Positions 1 to 36,513 of a stretch of 64,000 nt of DNA are shown here, in pieces. The notes beneath the pieces were generated by a model that saw only the letters and a program-made list of their open reading frames with translations, did no database searches and had not been told where the DNA came from. Position 1 is the first letter of the stretch. Each line of letters begins with the position of its first letter. The position numbers and the translations under genes were made by a program. Origin of the DNA: Spirosoma endbachense (GTDB lineage: Bacteria > Bacteroidota > Bacteroidia > Cytophagales > Spirosomataceae); contig NZ_CP045997.1 in NCBI RefSeq assembly GCF_010233585.1, positions 9,632,775 through 9,696,774 of the forward strand. The letters run 5' to 3'.

Positions 1-3000
1 GATCCCGTACTGAACGCCCTTCGCGCACAGCTACAAAAGGCCGGATCGAACAGTTCCCTGATTCTGTTAGGTGACAATATATACCAATTTGGATTGCCGG
101 ATGCCGATAATCCGAACCGGCCGGACGCTGAACGCCGGATGCGCGACCAACTCGATTTGCGGACTGCGTTTACGGGTCGGGTTTTTGCCATTCCGGGTAA
201 TCATGACTGGGACAAAAGCGGCCGGGAAGGATGGCAACGGATTAAAAATCAGCAGGATTTTGTGCGCCAATATACCGGCCGGGACGACGTCTTTTTTCCG
301 AATGACGGGTGCCCTGGGCCGGTTGAGGTGCCTTTGTCCGATTCGTTGACGCTGGTGCTGATGGACACGCAGTACTGGCTGCATCCGTGGGACAGACCTG
401 GCGAAGAGTCAGATTGTGGAGCCAAGAGCCTTCCTGAATTTCTGACTCAACTAGACGATATTCTGTACCGCAACCGGCATCGGCGCGTAGTGGTAGCGGG
501 CCACCACCCGATGTATAGCCACGGTGAGCATGGAGGGCATTTTACGCTCAAAGACCACCTGTTTCCATTGACAGACATTCGTAAATGGCTATATGTGCCG
601 CTGCCCGTTATTGGCTCGATCTACCCAATCTATCGGTCGGTGTTCGGAAGCTTACAGGATTTGCCCAACCCCGTATACCGCGAGATGCGGAATGGTATGG
701 TTGCTCTTTTTAAGAAATACCGCAACCTGATTTATACCAACGGCCACGATCATAACCTGCAACTGATCCGGCGTGATAGCCTGAATTATCTGACCAGTGG
801 CAGTGGATCAAAACATACGGCGGTTGCCAAAAAAGCCGAGTCGTTATTTGCGCTTGAAAAGCAGGGATTTGCTAGGCTGGATTTCGGGGTTGGCAACCAG
901 ATGACCATTTCGTTTTTTGCCCCGAGCGATCAGCAGCCAACCGGCGAACTATTGTATCAGACAACGATCCAGCTTCGTCCGGACCCAATTCCGAGCCTAA
1001 TCGAAAAGACCCAGAAACAACCGGATAGTTTGCGGATTGTGCCGGGCGCTGGCTATGCCGCCGGATCGGGTAAGCGGTTCTGGTTCGGTGCCAATTACCG
1101 CGATGTATGGACGAATCCCCTGACCGTTCCTGTGCTGAATATGCAGAAGGCGGGCCTGGTGCCTACTGAGCGGGGTGGCGGTTTCCAGACGTTGTCGTTG
1201 CGGCTTGTTGACCCAAAGAAGCATGAATTTGCGATCCGATCCATCGAAAAATACCCGGAGAAGGCGATTCCGGAAGCGCTACGGAGTGGACTTGCCAACG
1301 ATATCGTACAGGATCAGATCTCGGCTTCGCATCCGTTTGCCGCGTTGGCCATAGCGCCACTGGCCGAGACTGCTGGCGTCTATCATACAAATCCGAAGGT
1401 AGTCGTGATGCCCGATGATACGGCATTGCGCGACTACCAGCATACGTTTGCCAACATGCTCATGTTGCTCGAAGAACGGGCCGACGGTGATTACAAAGGA
1501 ACGGGGCTGTTTGGGAATACGTCAAAGCTTTATAGTACCCCCAAACTCCTTGAGAAACTACAGGACGACAACGACAATCGGGTCGATCAGCGATCTGTGC
1601 TGAGGGCGCGGCTGTTCGATATGTTGATTGGCGATTGGGACCGGCATGACGATCAGTGGCGGTGGGCTAGTTTTAAGTCGAGTAAAGGTTTGCGCTTTAT
1701 GCCTGTTCCGCGCGACCGCGATCAGGCGTTTTTTGTCAATGAAGGTATTCTGCCGAAAATCGTCAGCCGACGCTGGTTACTGCCTAAAATACAGGGATTT
1801 GATTATAAAATCCGGTATGTGCCTGGGTTCAATACCAACGCCCGCTTTTTCGACCGCTCATTTCTGACCGAACCAAGCCGCGCCGACTGGCTGGCGGTGG
1901 CCGATTCACTGCAACGAAGCCTGACCGATGAGGCCATCAATAAAGCCCTGAGTCAGTTACCTGAGCCATCGCGGAGCCTGACCGCCGAAACGATAGCGGC
2001 TAAACTGCGTCAGCGTCGTGCGGATCTGCTGCGTTATGCCGACGAACAATACCGTTTTCTGGCCAAAGCCGTTGATGTAGTGGGTAGCGATAAGGACGAA
2101 CTCTTCGATCTGACCCGGCTACCTGACGGCCAGACAGATGTGGTTGTTTATAAACTCAATAAAGACAAAGAACCAACCCAGGAACTGTATAAGCGCCGAT
2201 TCGATCCGGCCGAAACGCAGGAGATACGGTTGTATGGGTTGGGTGGCGACGACAGATTTGTGCTTCATGGTACGGCCCCGGAAGGCAGTCTGATCCGGAT
2301 TATCGGCGGCAAAGGCGATGATGTCATAACGGATAGTTCATCGGTTCGGGGGCTATCACGCAGAACGTGGGTGTATGATCTACGCAAGAACACGACCATT
2401 TCGGGAGGTTCAGAAACGCGTAATCGCTTGTCGGATAATAAAGATGTCAATAAATACGACCGTACGGCTTTCCGGTATAACCTTACCATGCCGCTGGCCA
2501 CCGTGCAGGCCAACCCCGATGATGGTCTGTTTATTGGCGGAGGTATTTTGCGTCGGACGCAGGGCTTCCGCAAGGAGCCATTCGCTCAGCAACACCGAAT
2601 CATGGTCAGCCATGCGTTTGCAACCGAAGCTTACAATTTTCATTACGACGGAACATTTACAGACTTACTGGGCAAGGCTGATTTGTTACTCAATGCCGAT
2701 ATAAAAGCCCCGAATTTCGTCCAGAATTTCTTTGGCATCGGCAATGAAACGGTATTCAATAAAGAATTGGGCGTCAATTATTACCGGGTCCGATTCGAGA
2801 ACTGGAGCTTAAATGCTCTTTTACAGCATAAATTGGGGAAAGCCACATTTTTCTACGGCCCATCGGTCGAGCGGATTGAAGTGGAAGAAGGCCAGAAGAA
2901 GTTTATTCAGGACTATGCCGCGAGCATTCCAGATGGTCAACGACTCTTCAACTCATTTCTGTATGGAGGATTGAAGGCTGGTTTTACGGTTGATACCCGC

Positions 3001-3525
3001 AATAATCCGTTGCTGACAACGCGTGGATTGCTATGGCGAACATCGCTGACGGCTTACGGAGGGTTGAATGATCAATCGAAATCATTTTCGCAACTACAGT
3101 CTGATCTCTCGTTTTATGCCAGCATTCGGTTACCGGCCATTCTGACCATTGCAACGCGCGTAGGTACCAGCCTGAATTTAAACGATAACTATGAGTTTTT
3201 CCAGGCCAGTACGCTCGGCGGTCTAACGAATCTACGGGGATTCCGGCGGACACGCTTTGCGGGCGAGAACGCCTTCTACCACAACCTGGATCTGCGAATG
3301 CGCCTGTTTACGATTAAAACCTACCTGTTTCCGGCTTATGCCGGGATTCTCGCTTTTAATGATGTTGGACGGGTATGGGTCGATGGCGAAAAGTCAAACG
3401 TCTGGCATCATGGCTACGGTGGCGGCCTCTGGTTATCGCCCTACAATACAGCGGTTATTTCATTGCTCTATGCGGTCTCCCGCGAAGATCGTATCCCAAT
3501 GCTTCGGGTAGGATTTTTCTTCTAA
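1..3525 (+). CDS. Metallophosphoesterase / kinase-like / Omp85-barrel fusion protein, 5' end outside window
   Basis: The reading frame is open from base 1, so the true start lies upstream; 1174 residues are visible. The N-terminal part is a calcineurin-type metallophosphoesterase: GDN at residues 24-26, GNHD at 66-69, GHH at 167-169 and GHDH at 248-251 are the usual metal ligands. A middle region has the motif GDWDRHDDQW (544-553) and then RDRD (D572, D574), which resemble the catalytic and metal loops of CotH/HipA-like kinases (inference). Two glycine-aspartate stretches (LGGDDRF, GGKGDD, around 745-770) look like calcium-binding repeats. The C-terminus is a BamA/TamA-like 16-strand barrel with the family's LRGF motif near residue 1077. 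Probably an outer-membrane protein; the substrate is unknown. It converges with the cyclase gene 14 bp downstream. Confidence 0.85.
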   Translation, partial: DPVLNALRAQLQKAGSNSSLILLGDNIYQFGLPDADNPNRPDAERRMRDQLDLRTAFTGRVFAIPGNHDWDKSGREGWQRIKNQQDFVRQYTGRDDVFFPNDGCPGPVEVPLSDSLTLVLMDTQYWLHPWDRPGEESDCGAKSLPEFLTQLDDILYRNRHRRVVVAGHHPMYSHGEHGGHFTLKDHLFPLTDIRKWLYVPLPVIGSIYPIYRSVFGSLQDLPNPVYREMRNGMVALFKKYRNLIYTNGHDHNLQLIRRDSLNYLTSGSGSKHTAVAKKAESLFALEKQGFARLDFGVGNQMTISFFAPSDQQPTGELLYQTTIQLRPDPIPSLIEKTQKQPDSLRIVPGAGYAAGSGKRFWFGANYRDVWTNPLTVPVLNMQKAGLVPTERGGGFQTLSLRLVDPKKHEFAIRSIEKYPEKAIPEALRSGLANDIVQDQISASHPFAALAIAPLAETAGVYHTNPKVVVMPDDTALRDYQHTFANMLMLLEERADGDYKGTGLFGNTSKLYSTPKLLEKLQDDNDNRVDQRSVLRARLFDMLIGDWDRHDDQWRWASFKSSKGLRFMPVPRDRDQAFFVNEGILPKIVSRRWLLPKIQGFDYKIRYVPGFNTNARFFDRSFLTEPSRADWLAVADSLQRSLTDEAINKALSQLPEPSRSLTAETIAAKLRQRRADLLRYADEQYRFLAKAVDVVGSDKDELFDLTRLPDGQTDVVVYKLNKDKEPTQELYKRRFDPAETQEIRLYGLGGDDRFVLHGTAPEGSLIRIIGGKGDDVITDSSSVRGLSRRTWVYDLRKNTTISGGSETRNRLSDNKDVNKYDRTAFRYNLTMPLATVQANPDDGLFIGGGILRRTQGFRKEPFAQQHRIMVSHAFATEAYNFHYDGTFTDLLGKADLLLNADIKAPNFVQNFFGIGNETVFNKELGVNYYRVRFENWSLNALLQHKLGKATFFYGPSVERIEVEEGQKKFIQDYAASIPDGQRLFNSFLYGGLKAGFTVDTRNNPLLTTRGLLWRTSLTAYGGLNDQSKSFSQLQSDLSFYASIRLPAILTIATRVGTSLNLNDNYEFFQASTLGGLTNLRGFRRTRFAGENAFYHNLDLRMRLFTIKTYLFPAYAGILAFNDVGRVWVDGEKSNVWHHGYGGGLWLSPYNTAVISLLYAVSREDRIPMLRVGFFF

Positions 3526-29503: not shown

Positions 29504-30718
29504 ATGCATCCGAATGAGCGCGTAGGCCGCTTACCTACTAATTGGACGTCCAACTACATTTATGCTGTTGTTTTCTCGTCATTCTGTGTAATGATGGGCC
29601 TATTATGGGACATTATGTGGCACATGAGTATCGGTCGCGATGGCCTGTTTGCACCACCCCATGTTGTGATCTACGTCGGAGCGGTCGTGTCCGGCCTGTT
29701 TTCAGCCTACCAGATCCTGAAATTAACACTCACAAAAAATCATCCGGGTAGGGCTCAGGCAGTTCCTTTCTGGGGCGTTTTTTATGGGCCATTGGGGGCC
29801 ATGTTCTGCGTTTGGGGTGCATTGGCTATGCTGACATCAGCACCATTTGACGACTGGTGGCATAATACCTATGGCCTCGATGTTCAGATACTAACCCCAC
29901 CCCACACGATTCTGGCCATTGGTATCATGACCGTACAGTTTGGAGCGATGGTCGGTGTATTGGCTTTACAGAATCAATATCGAAATCAAACCGTAAGTGA
30001 GGTTGCTGGGGGCAATCGGCGCCTTTCGCTACTGAAGTGGTTGTTTGCTATTTCGGCCGGCTTGCTGTTGATGATGCTTTATACGCTGCTTTCCGAGTCA
30101 ATGGGAATGCGCGAATCGCACCATTCCAGCTACTACGTCACCGCGGCCATCATCTTCCCATTTTACCTGCTGGCCGTAGGGCGCGGTTCCATGCTTCGCT
30201 GGCCAATTACAGCCATTACAGCTATCTATATGCTTGGTATGCTAGTGCCAAGCTGGATTCTTCCGTACTTTTCGGCTACCCCGCGGCTTGGCCCCGTTCT
30301 CAATCCGATCACCCATTATCAGCCATTTCTGTTTCCGGTGGTGTTAATTGTTCCGGCACTGGCTCTTGACTGGTTGATGCACCGGTTTGAGCTCCCCGCC
30401 AATGGAAAACGAAAGCTGAATGATTGGGTGCTGGCTGTTCTATATGCTGTGGCATTTATGATCGTACTACTGGCCGTTCAGTGGCCATTCGGCGGGTTTT
30501 TACTTACATCGCCTTATGCCCATAATGGTTTTTTTCTGTCTAATTCCTGGTCATACGATAGCCCTCCCGATTGGGAGTATCGCTATGCATTTGCCCCCTG
30601 GAATATCGAGTCGACCACTGATTTCTGGATTAGCTTCGGTAGGGCTTTAGTATATGCCACGCTGTCGGCCCGTGTTGGTCTACTCTGGGGGAACTGGATG
30701 AAACGGGTAGCGAGATGA
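29504..30718 (+). CDS. Unassigned multi-pass membrane protein with duplicated Trp-His/Pro-Pro-His motif
   Basis: 404 residues with about ten membrane segments. Two related segments stand out: WDIMWH...G.D....PPH at residues 35-53 and DDWWH...G.D.....PPH at 116-134, aligning D36/D116, W39-H40/W119-H120, G44/G124, D46/D126 and PPH 51-53/132-134. The pattern suggests two similar metal-, haem- or quinone-binding half-sites at a membrane surface (inference). Other conserved-looking spots are ESHHSSYY and SYDSPPDWEY. The stop codon overlaps the next gene's ATG (ATGA), so the pair is translationally coupled. No described family is recognised. Confidence 0.75.
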   Translation: MHPNERVGRLPTNWTSNYIYAVVFSSFCVMMGLLWDIMWHMSIGRDGLFAPPHVVIYVGAVVSGLFSAYQILKLTLTKNHPGRAQAVPFWGVFYGPLGAMFCVWGALAMLTSAPFDDWWHNTYGLDVQILTPPHTILAIGIMTVQFGAMVGVLALQNQYRNQTVSEVAGGNRRLSLLKWLFAISAGLLLMMLYTLLSESMGMRESHHSSYYVTAAIIFPFYLLAVGRGSMLRWPITAITAIYMLGMLVPSWILPYFSATPRLGPVLNPITHYQPFLFPVVLIVPALALDWLMHRFELPANGKRKLNDWVLAVLYAVAFMIVLLAVQWPFGGFLLTSPYAHNGFFLSNSWSYDSPPDWEYRYAFAPWNIESTTDFWISFGRALVYATLSARVGLLWGNWMKRVAR

Positions 30719-32436
30719 GTTGCATTCAAACAGAAATAGGTATGACTAAAGATACAAGTAGCGTTTACAGTCGAATAAAGTGGTTTGTGTTTCTGTATAC
30801 GCTCATTCACTTATTGACTCATTCACTCAGTGTAACGGCTCACGTTGGTAGTTCAGGCGTGATTGTGCAAAAACAGGCCGGTAAATATCAGTTATTGATC
30901 CAGATCAGTCCGCCCGATGTGGTGCCCGGAACGGCTAAGGTTACGGTATTTGTTGAGCAGGGGCGGGTCAGTAGTATTGGTGCACGGCCAATTTATTTCC
31001 GTTCGGGCGATAAAGGTGCGCCAACCCACGATGTGCTGACACCGGTAGGCGACAACCGGTATGAAGGTGACCTGTGGCTAATGGCATCAGGCTCGTCGAG
31101 TGTTGAGCTAAGCATCGACGGACCCGATGGAAAGCAGCAAGTTGTTGTACCCGTGATGGCGCTGGCAACGGCTCTGCGTGATATGCCCGCTGGAACAGGC
31201 TGGGGACTGGCTGCTATGGGTCTGTTGCTGGTTGTTATGCTGATCACAATTATTGGAGCGAGCAATGCCGACGGAATCGTGGCGCCTGATCAGCCAATTG
31301 TTGCAGCACTTCGGAAACGGCGACTGCTCGGAATGGGCATTGGCCTGGTCGTGTTAGTGCTGATTTTGGCCGGATGGCGGTCGTGGTGGAACAGCACATC
31401 GGAACAATATCGAACGCAACAACTGTATCAGCCTTTGCCAATTCATGCATCCGTGAACATGGCAAATGGCCAGCGTCAACTGACGATTCAGATTGACACA
31501 ACTGATTTTAGGAAAAATGCGCGTCGGCGGACACTGAGTTATATACTTCCTGATCATGGCAAGCTCATGCACGCCTTTTTAGTCAGAATGCCGGGCCTGG
31601 ATGCGTTCGCGCATTTACATCCTGTTCGGCAGGACACATTGCACTATAACGCGGCACTTCCGCCTTTGCCGGGGGGTAAATACCTGCTTTATGCCGATGT
31701 TGTGTATCGCAGTGGTTTTGCCGAAACCCTGACCGATATAGTAGAAATACCTTCGTTAAAAATTAGCCCCGAAGTTGCTGCCAATGCGAAACCGACGGAT
31801 CGTGATGACAGCTGGCTCGTAACGGAACCGATGGGCGTAAAAGCCAATGCCGTGAATATGCCCCATCTGGATAACGATATGGTCGTATGCGGCAAACCGG
31901 GTGCCAGCATGAAACTGGAGGATGGCTCCAGTATGCTCTGGATGGATAAAGCGTCGCCGGTTCTGGAGGCTGGCAAATTGTATAATCTGAAATTTGCAGT
32001 CGCTGATGCACAGGGAAAAGCGGCCCCATTAGAACCCTATCTGGGGATGGGTGGCCATGCGGTTATCCTGCGATCGGATGGAACTGTATACATTCATCTG
32101 CATCCGGTCGGGACCTATTCAATGGCTGCCGAAGGCTCTCTGGTAGGTCGTATTGCGGATACTGCCCGTACATTTCATTACCCTGATGCGGCCAGGTTCC
32201 GGGATAGTATCGACACCTATGTCGCCAAATTAAACGCACTGCCCGAGGCCGAAAAGAATAAGTTGCTGCAGACAACCATGCCCACGATGAGCCATGCGAT
32301 GAAAACCAACAATATGGTTGAGTTTCCGTATGCTTTCCCACGTGCCGGACACTATCGAATCTGGGTACAGGTGAAACGAAATGGTCGTGTTCTAACGGGT
32401 GTCTTCGATACTCAGGTAAACGAACCGCTATTGTAA
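30715..32436 (+). CDS. Unassigned membrane-anchored periplasmic protein with His-x-His motifs
   Basis: 573 residues, coupled by ATGA overlap to the preceding gene. An N-terminal signal sequence ends at ...SVTA, so signal peptidase could leave H43 as the first mature residue, as in His-brace copper proteins (inference). An Ig-like region (~43-150) is followed by two membrane helices (~162-182 and ~207-228) and a large C-terminal periplasmic part with DHGKLMH (280-286), FAHLHP (H300, H302), MGGHAV (H448) and YIHLHPVG (H461, H463). These motifs look metal-binding, most plausibly copper. I know no named family for the pair. An alternative start is the ATG at 30742. Confidence 0.75.
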   Translation: MSCIQTEIGMTKDTSSVYSRIKWFVFLYTLIHLLTHSLSVTAHVGSSGVIVQKQAGKYQLLIQISPPDVVPGTAKVTVFVEQGRVSSIGARPIYFRSGDKGAPTHDVLTPVGDNRYEGDLWLMASGSSSVELSIDGPDGKQQVVVPVMALATALRDMPAGTGWGLAAMGLLLVVMLITIIGASNADGIVAPDQPIVAALRKRRLLGMGIGLVVLVLILAGWRSWWNSTSEQYRTQQLYQPLPIHASVNMANGQRQLTIQIDTTDFRKNARRRTLSYILPDHGKLMHAFLVRMPGLDAFAHLHPVRQDTLHYNAALPPLPGGKYLLYADVVYRSGFAETLTDIVEIPSLKISPEVAANAKPTDRDDSWLVTEPMGVKANAVNMPHLDNDMVVCGKPGASMKLEDGSSMLWMDKASPVLEAGKLYNLKFAVADAQGKAAPLEPYLGMGGHAVILRSDGTVYIHLHPVGTYSMAAEGSLVGRIADTARTFHYPDAARFRDSIDTYVAKLNALPEAEKNKLLQTTMPTMSHAMKTNNMVEFPYAFPRAGHYRIWVQVKRNGRVLTGVFDTQVNEPLL

Positions 32437-34716: not shown

Positions 34717-36513
34717 TCATCGTCCGATATAGCGGTAGTTAAAGCGTCGGTCGGGAGCACTGTCTCCATTTATAAAAAACTGGGTAATATCATTTAGCTT
34801 TTCGATATTATCAGCCCAATGAAAATCAAACTTTGGAATTGATGTAAAGTTGAAAACTTTTTTAGGAATGCTTATCTCCATTCGATTGCCAACGGCTTTA
34901 TAGTTGGCCTTACCAATTGACTGCCACCGCCCCTTGCTCCATCGATCAATACTAGTTTGACCATTAGGGCTTACTTGCCGATTAATAATAATATCGTATC
35001 CTTCCCATCCCGTCTTTTTTGATTGATCTACATCAATAAAAAGCAGCATCCAGTTTCGGCCATTTGGCGTTGTAAGGGGCTTAGCTGTTTTGCTATAAAA
35101 ATATATTGAATTTTTGTCATGCGTTGTTCTGGACTCTATTATATCATTTCGACCGGTTATGTTGGTTAATCTCAGTTTGTTATCATAACGAGGCCAGTCT
35201 CTATGGGCCACATCTCCCTGAAGATCGTTAAAGACTGGTTTAACTGATGCCCACTCATCAAATTTCCCATCAATAGACATCGTTCGAGAAGGAGTAGCTG
35301 TTTCTTCGGGGTTCAATCCCTTAAACCGTCGGACATTAGCTACTAACTGGTAATAGTAATTATCAGTATAGCCACCTTTCATAGGTTCAATATCACGATT
35401 AAATTCTTCATTATATTCATCCTGAAAAAAAGTTTCACCATGTTGCATTTTATGGTTGATGAAGCTTTTCAGCACCATACTCCGATCATTTGTATCTGCA
35501 ATAAATCGTTGTGCAATCCACTCATTCCAGCCCGTAACGAATACTACAGATGGGTCAACAGCTAAAGCGCGTTTCCATTGTTCGGCAAAATATAGCCCAA
35601 CATTGGTGGATGTTGTTGTAAGGTACCGATTTAGGGGACGTTGTTGGCCGTTACTTGAACTTTTTCCAACTCCAAATATTGGATGGCTGGCAGCGGCTAC
35701 TGGAATTTCTTCAGGTTTATTGGGGTCATTTACCCAGCCATAATCCTGCGGAGTACTATCAAACCATTGCCAATGACCTGGTTGTGACTTAGCTTCTGTA
35801 AACTGCCAACTAAACCGCCAGGTAAAGAAATTACGTTGTGTCGGTTCACCGATTTCTTCTTGCTTCCCCAAAATTAGTGGCTTACCTTCCCAACGGAACC
35901 AAAGATCGGGATATTGATTTTTTGCATAAAAATTGTTATATAAATCAGCTATAGTTTCTTTCGGATTAGAATTTGTCACGAAACAGATGTAAGGTGTCTT
36001 TTGTCCTTGTCGACGCATGTCGGCCGATATTGCACATAATTTTATTAATGTTTGGAGATAGGTATCCCGGTTTGTAACATCCATAAATAAGATGTCTATA
36101 CCGGCATTTGTTAACATTTGAAGATTACGCCTGATAATCCAGGGATCATCAGCTTTATAATAGCCTGCTTCGGGTTCCCCCCACCAGTGAAAAGCACCTT
36201 TAGGGCCATAGGCAGGATGAACAGGATTTGCTCGTAATAATTTTGAAATATCATAAACTGCCCCTTTGTAGGCACCATGCCATAAAAAATAAAAGATACC
36301 TACATATTTATTCGAACGTGCTGGTCCTGTTTCAACGGAAGTAGGTAATCTTCGTCCCGCTCCATCAGTTGCTACCCAATTATTATTTAAAATTACATGG
36401 CTCGGCGAGTTTTCAGCCATTTGATATTCAGGTTCAAATTTATCGACCAAATAAAGCTTAGAACCTAAGTAGGTAAATACGATAAGAATACCAATAATAT
36501 TAAAATAGCGCAT
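34717..36513 (-). CDS. Glycoside hydrolase-like protein (GH71/GH99-like) with C-terminal sugar-binding module
   Basis: 598 residues. An N-terminal membrane anchor or uncleaved signal (YFNIIGILIVFTYLGSKLYLV) precedes a TIM-barrel domain resembling the GH71/GH99/DUF5010 group: KYVGIFYFLWHGAY, FHWWGEPEAGYY, GIDILFMDVTN, VVFVTGWNEW. The last ~190 residues (IDGKFDEW ... ISIPKKVFN) look like a CBM9-like module. The gene is clearly more AT-rich than both neighbours, which suggests lateral acquisition. The substrate is unknown, perhaps an alpha-mannan or related glycan. Confidence 0.7.
   Translation of the reverse strand: MRYFNIIGILIVFTYLGSKLYLVDKFEPEYQMAENSPSHVILNNNWVATDGAGRRLPTSVETGPARSNKYVGIFYFLWHGAYKGAVYDISKLLRANPVHPAYGPKGAFHWWGEPEAGYYKADDPWIIRRNLQMLTNAGIDILFMDVTNRDTYLQTLIKLCAISADMRRQGQKTPYICFVTNSNPKETIADLYNNFYAKNQYPDLWFRWEGKPLILGKQEEIGEPTQRNFFTWRFSWQFTEAKSQPGHWQWFDSTPQDYGWVNDPNKPEEIPVAAASHPIFGVGKSSSNGQQRPLNRYLTTTSTNVGLYFAEQWKRALAVDPSVVFVTGWNEWIAQRFIADTNDRSMVLKSFINHKMQHGETFFQDEYNEEFNRDIEPMKGGYTDNYYYQLVANVRRFKGLNPEETATPSRTMSIDGKFDEWASVKPVFNDLQGDVAHRDWPRYDNKLRLTNITGRNDIIESRTTHDKNSIYFYSKTAKPLTTPNGRNWMLLFIDVDQSKKTGWEGYDIIINRQVSPNGQTSIDRWSKGRWQSIGKANYKAVGNRMEISIPKKVFNFTSIPKFDFHWADNIEKLNDITQFFINGDSAPDRRFNYRYIGR

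Follow-up and report, generated by a model that had tools for sequence, protein, structure and literature searches.

A two-gene membrane system of Spirosoma endbachense as a probable distant relative of the copper membrane monooxygenases

Copper membrane monooxygenases (CuMMOs) catalyse the initial reaction in the oxidation of methane and of ammonia. The location of the active site in one of them, the particulate methane monooxygenase (pMMO), is described in the text of PMC12576850 as long disputed, and the same text gives the ligands of two copper sites in the PmoC subunit of M. capsulatus as Asp156, His160 and His173 (CuC) and Asn227, His231 and His245 (CuD). In the text of PMC11194816, pMMO hydroxylation is assigned to CuD, with a neutral Asn and three Phe around it, and a carboxylate ligand is said to affect the copper oxidation state strongly. 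In this study, we have explored two genes, here called A and B, in a window of 64,000 nucleotides (the whole stretch of DNA that was analysed) from Spirosoma endbachense (contig NZ_CP045997.1, positions 9,632,775 to 9,696,774 of the forward strand; the genome is a single contig of 10,326,072 bases). Taken together, homology and architecture make it very probable that A-B is a deep-branching relative of the CuMMOs, that is, of pMMO and ammonia monooxygenase (AMO). The bacteria that carry the pair are not known as methane or ammonia oxidisers. An earlier reading of the DNA (the original prediction) had proposed a two-gene membrane system with copper as the most plausible metal, and our analysis upholds both points; it did not recognise that A is related to PmoC/AmoC and has a PmoA-like fold in its second half, or that B ends in a CrdA-like domain.

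The relation is most evident in the first half of A. Like PmoC/AmoC (PF04896), A has a D-x2-W-H-x4-R-D...P-x-H hairpin, as at CuC, followed in the same order by a second set of ligands at CuD spacing. The ligand offsets are 0/4/17 for D36/H40/H53 as for CuC, and 0/4/18 for D116/H120/H134 as for CuD. Identity to M. capsulatus PmoC amounts to 9/18 residues in hairpin 1 and 4/19 in hairpin 2, an acid at offset +10 is common to both (D46 and D126 in A; Asp and Glu in PmoC), and R45 occupies the position of PmoC Arg165. The residues to which the original prediction had drawn attention, and whose invariance it had proposed as a check (D36, W39-H40, D46, H53, D116, W119-H120, D126 and H134), are at the predicted positions and identical in all 101 rows of our alignment, which holds the window, 81 open reading frames (ORFs) from 80 loci and 19 ORFs from 20 loci. 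R45 is kept in every row as well, and the remaining histidines of A vary (H271 in 57/65, H293 in 28/65). Among 2081 open stretches of at least 120 codons (window and 100 loci, A homologues included), 119 contain D-x3-H-x12-H, and 101 of these also carry [DN]-x3-H-x13-H 50 to 110 residues further on; since all 101 begin with the A-type motif, the paired motif in A is not a chance occurrence.

Profile comparisons point in the same direction. With hhalign, the A alignment matched 14 PmoC/AmoC sequences at E 9e-4 (probability 23%) with both hairpins in register, and an alignment combining two Bacteroidota sequences with five from actinobacteria did so at E 7e-5 (63%); the best scores from 150 column shuffles were 24.5 and 23.0, against real scores of 34.4 and 43.3. 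The actinobacterial proteins belong to an unnamed family (for instance Leifsonia WP_185279132 and Streptomyces WP_024126299) that is homologous to A and has both hairpins. A tblastn search of plasmids with A returned six records, all actinobacterial, and the Leifsonia protein has 428 relatives at E<=0.001; in the 120 matches listed, the named organisms are actinobacteria and the proteins are called 'hypothetical', 'uncharacterized' or 'integral membrane protein'. An alignment of 40 actinobacterial relatives (A11) is homologous to A at E 1.1e-12 and, searched against all PDB sequences, matched PmoC/AmoC only (12/12 matches at E<=10, best 0.03). AmoC was also the best or second sub-threshold Pfam match in 5/10 and 2/4 actinobacterial relatives, and no match in the others. 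Compared on its own, hairpin 1 of A11 matched the CuC hairpin of PmoC at E 2e-7, and hairpin 2 did so at E 0.0013, with 0/60 shuffles as good in either case. Against the CuD hairpin, hairpin 1 gave E 0.2 (19/60 shuffles as good) and hairpin 2 gave E 0.0097 but misaligned (1/60). By these computations, hairpin 1 is homologous to the CuC hairpin of PmoC.

The searches with A itself were less telling. Neither A nor B had a match over threshold in Pfam and NCBIfam scans, in agreement with the earlier statement that they belong to no named family. In the whole S. endbachense genome, the PF04896 profile had a single match at E<=10, and it fell on A (E 1.16, 10.6 bits against a cut-off of 26.7); because of this E-value and of sub-threshold matches in 2/14 control genomes, we regard it as a hint only. 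PDB sequence searches with A, as a single sequence or as a profile, gave nothing credible, the profile from the alignment of A homologues (A5) having no match at all, and the 25 Pfam families listed for the members of A5 did not include AmoC. Foldseek with the model of A found no match at E<=0.001, and an AmoC chain (9leg_C) stood at rank 28 with E 1.4. Homologues of A and B showed weak Pfam matches to amino-acid permease, DUF373, DUF6338 and others.

The two hairpins of A are also related to each other. In A5, hairpin 1 matched hairpin 2 at E 1.1e-5, and in A11 at E 1.7e-11, with 0/150 shuffles as good in both. The same self-comparison fails for the CuC and CuD hairpins of PmoC (E 0.11, 18/150 shuffles as good). 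Thus the hairpins of A arose by internal duplication and are still recognisably alike, unlike those of PmoC. A differs from PmoC in other respects too: it lies below the Pfam cut-off, is about 90 residues shorter before the first site, has Asp in place of the CuD Asn (as do 39/40 actinobacterial relatives, the other having a gap) and is fused to a PmoA-like half. We infer that both sites of A bind copper through Asp-His-His.

The evidence for the PmoA-like half is structural. By computation, residues 163-404 of A adopt a PmoA-like fold in the predicted model, with no detectable sequence similarity to PmoA/AmoA (PF02461): the AMO profile (PF02461) had no match on A, and hhalign of A against PmoA was not significant with a PmoA profile of four sequences only. 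PmoA is encoded by a separate gene, whereas the PmoA-like part of A is fused behind the PmoC-like part.

B resembles PmoB/AmoB (PF04744) in layout, with a signal peptide, an AxA-His-type mature N-terminus, a beta domain, two transmembrane helices and C-terminal beta domain(s), and directly follows the C-A gene, a PmoB-like place. The motifs of B named by the original prediction are all present, and its suggestion that the mature protein may start with His is supported by a conserved H43 at the predicted N-terminus (93/95 rows, with Ala at -1 in 84/95). H286, H302, H448 and H461 are identical in 95/95 rows and H281, H300 and H463 in 93/95; the remaining histidines vary (H105 in 19/56, H546 in 22/56). 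By computation, the last domain is predicted to have a copper-protein-like fold similar to CrdA. It resembles the soluble copper proteins CrdA, FetP and PmoD without a sequence match, and differs from them in being a single module within a membrane-anchored, A-coupled protein. By sequence, B alone had no PDB match to support a CrdA-like domain, and the B profile gave five weak unrelated ones; Foldseek with B listed fibronectin-like and macroglobulin-like folds.

B also departs from PmoB. Its HxHP motifs are in two C-terminal domains and not in the first, it has one domain more, and no sequence or fold match was found. Despite H43, the alignments of B homologues contain no conserved HxH in residues 43-149, so that the His-brace CuB site of PmoB is not recovered. 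The comparison with PmoB by hhalign was not significant (E 0.24, with a PmoB profile of four sequences only), and the Monooxygenase_B profile (PF04744) had no match, yet it matched nowhere in its control either. PmoB was absent from the re-ranked Foldseek rows, a re-ranking that covers Foldseek's own list only and proves nothing. The two deviating B rows, L079 and L080, come from truncated paralogues that lack an accompanying A. These shortened proteins, from two genomes of one genus (G277, G321), have 388 amino acids, consist mainly of the two C-terminal domains and have Gln or Arg at three of the conserved histidines; no A was found in either genome.

A and B form a real, coupled pair. The predicted ATGA overlap of their reading frames was verified, and the expectation that the genes are always adjacent holds in 76/80 named loci, where B lies behind A in the same orientation, no more than about 350 bases away; of the remaining loci, three are cut off by the end of the contig, and in one (L148) the 6 kb downstream contain no B. 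Among 200 Spirosomataceae genomes, A was found in 124, B in 127 and both in 123. Evenly drawn Bacteroidota samples had A in 2/247 and 3/296 genomes, only in the window's own family, and an order-level sample in 15/148, six of them across four other families. Database relatives at E<=0.001 number 2468 for A and 1923 for B, from about 8000 scored candidates each; those of the 120 listed matches that bear a name are called 'hypothetical' or 'uncharacterized', apart from a single 'VanZ family protein'. In one metagenome-assembled genome, two A genes stand in tandem (L078, L119), each about 63% identical to that of the window; G250, G264, G289 and G359 also have two matches, and at G551:C10:234290-235500 an A relative is spread over two open frames that overlap (profile 3-231 and 229-410).

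The actinobacterial family is arranged differently. Behind an invariant AxA-His, internal to the protein, 40/40 relatives carry a C-terminal domain, and as there is a weak hhalign match between this domain and the N-terminal domain of B (E 0.0059, probability 6%), similar parts seem to be fused in Actinobacteria and split as A and B in Bacteroidota. On a Rubrobacter marinus plasmid (L254 5850-7022) both hairpin motifs lie outside the frame of the annotated ORF, and this copy may be broken or misread. On a Mycolicibacterium vanbaalenii plasmid (L251) a CopC gene stands directly before the A relative, with genes for haem-copper oxidase subunit III and a CbtA-family protein nearby.

Set against a classical CuMMO, A has the CuC set Asp-x3-His-x12-His in 101/101 rows. 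At the CuD set, Asn-x3-His-x13-His, the spacing is kept with Asp for Asn in every row. The fold of subunit A is present in the predicted model, and the order of C-A then B is kept, with the C and A parts in one gene. A-B stays below the Pfam thresholds and was found to lack both the CuD Asn and the CuB site, and for these reasons we do not consider it a classical member; it is best described as a distant CuMMO relative, which may function through copper sites of a similar kind. Counting positions, the Phe cage of PmoC (F177, F240, F248) falls on Y57, I129 and L137 of A, and with these and D116 in the CuD environment both sites of A resemble CuC.

Since Asp replaces the catalytic Asn227 and the Phe cage positions hold Y57, I129 and L137, and also because of the CrdA-like domain of B and of copper or metal genes near 3/5 actinobacterial plasmid loci examined, we favour, with moderate confidence, a function of A-B in handling copper or in its redox chemistry rather than in the hydroxylation of hydrocarbons. 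In architecture, A is very probably a minimal PmoC, with two tandem copper hairpins, joined to a PmoA-like bundle, and B its periplasmic partner, with a PmoB-like layout and His/Met-rich copper-protein-like domains. B would collect periplasmic copper and pass it to A, where copper could be held and redox-cycled, for copper oxidation, storage or supply to cuproenzymes. It is possible, as the sequences had first suggested, that the pair moves or oxidises a metal ion; haem handling, also proposed then, found no support in any analysis run. Metal resistance genes abound on plasmids, which makes the plasmid neighbourhoods biased evidence. In Spirosomataceae, the commonest neighbour families besides B occur in at most 41/101 sources, and of ten scanned, three are unnamed and the seven named by Pfam (NlpC/P60, FAA hydrolase, M23, HAD, AhpC/TSA, transketolase, YgbB) are not copper genes; the nearest window genes are no copper genes by Pfam either, as the original prediction had noted for the classical ones. 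Finally, the match of hairpin 2 to CuD was not recovered when hairpin 2 of the relatives was compared alone, and because that comparison was misaligned, the equivalence is based on the order and spacing of the sites and on the alignment over the full length.

A-B could instead be a true CuMMO of unknown substrate, activating O2 at the hairpin-2 copper and oxidising a hydrophobic substrate or small amine as in pMMO/AMO. The same ligand spacing at both sites, the invariant R45 at the place of Arg165, the PmoA-like half and the C-A-B order argue for it; we consider it rather unlikely, given the Asp for Asn227 in all A rows and nearly all relatives, the loss of the Phe cage and the lack, in most loci, of a recurring oxidation-pathway neighbour, the named common families being general ones. 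A role of A-B as a device for copper acquisition or tolerance, with a likeness to pMMO limited to the metal-binding hairpins and a PmoA-like half that is a generic helical bundle, is improbable; the firm homology of hairpin 1 only, the PmoA similarity without sequence support and the copper or metal genes near three actinobacterial relatives are consistent with it. An independent origin of the Asp-His-His pattern in an A-B unrelated to CuMMOs would fit the lack of any match over a curated threshold and of an individually significant PDB sequence match, but is very improbable, as shuffled controls stay below the real scores for the full profile and hairpin 1 and every PDB sequence match of the actinobacterial relatives is PmoC/AmoC.

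More tentatively, we propose that the pair forms, together with the actinobacterial family, a sister lineage of the methane and ammonia monooxygenases that had so far escaped recognition. It would keep the ancestral state, two alike Asp-His-His hairpins from a tandem duplication in a copper-handling membrane protein; CuD would have come from hairpin 2 by an Asp-to-Asn change, and a copper homeostasis protein of ordinary heterotrophs would be either the forerunner of the CuMMOs or their relative by common descent. The doubled copper-site motif is still evident in A-B, from a heterotrophic host, and hardly recognisable in the methane/ammonia enzyme. A two-gene relative with a fused C-A subunit would be a simpler system in which the copper hairpins can be altered singly, and A-B could provide an outgroup when the origin of CuMMOs is traced; in the text of the CuMMO survey PMC6215863, archaeal AMO is called the logical outgroup. 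In the open-access journal papers searched (including PMC9038741, PMC6215863, PMC6189053, PMC12576850, PMC8262859 and PMC11194816), no CuMMO homologue of this kind is described, and a term search of the main text of the CuMMO papers PMC9038741 and PMC6215863 found none of 'bacteroid', 'fused' and 'fusion'.

Table 1. Genes, domains and hairpins of the A-B locus, in window positions
Feature	Position	Strand	Description	Basis
Gene A	29504-30718	+	404 aa multi-pass membrane protein, apparently fused PmoC-like and PmoA-like
A residues 14-160	29543-29983	+	PmoC-like half, two repeated helix-loop-helix hairpins	AlphaFold2 model, hhalign with PmoC/AmoC, internal repeat
Hairpin 1 (D36, H40, R45, D46, H53)	29609-29662	+	equivalent of PmoC CuC D156/H160/H173 with Arg165
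Hairpin 2 (D116, H120, D126, H134)	29849-29905	+	collinear with PmoC CuD N227/H231/H245; Asp instead of Asn
A residues 163-404	29990-30715	+	PmoA/AmoA-like fold	predicted model
Gene B	30715-32436	+	573 aa; signal helix, N-terminal beta domain, two transmembrane helices, two C-terminal beta domains
B residues 43-149	30841-31161	+	N-terminal beta domain, H43 at predicted mature N-terminus	model; residues 38-45 with pLDDT (predicted local distance difference test) < 50
B residues 159-236	31189-31422	+	two transmembrane helices (159-186, 197-236)	model
B residues 243-345	31441-31749	+	beta domain with DHGKLMH (H281, M285, H286) and FAHLHP (H300, H302)	model and alignment
B residues 396-568	31900-32418	+	beta domain with MGGHAV (M445, H448) and YIHLHP (H461, H463); CrdA/FetP/PmoD-like fold

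Elsewhere in the window, a protein encoded at 34717-36513 (-) matches glycosyl hydrolase family 99 below the threshold (E 8.4e-7, 28.9 bits where 33 are required), and a single ORF at 94-3525 (+) combines a calcineurin-like phosphoesterase domain with an Omp85 barrel domain.
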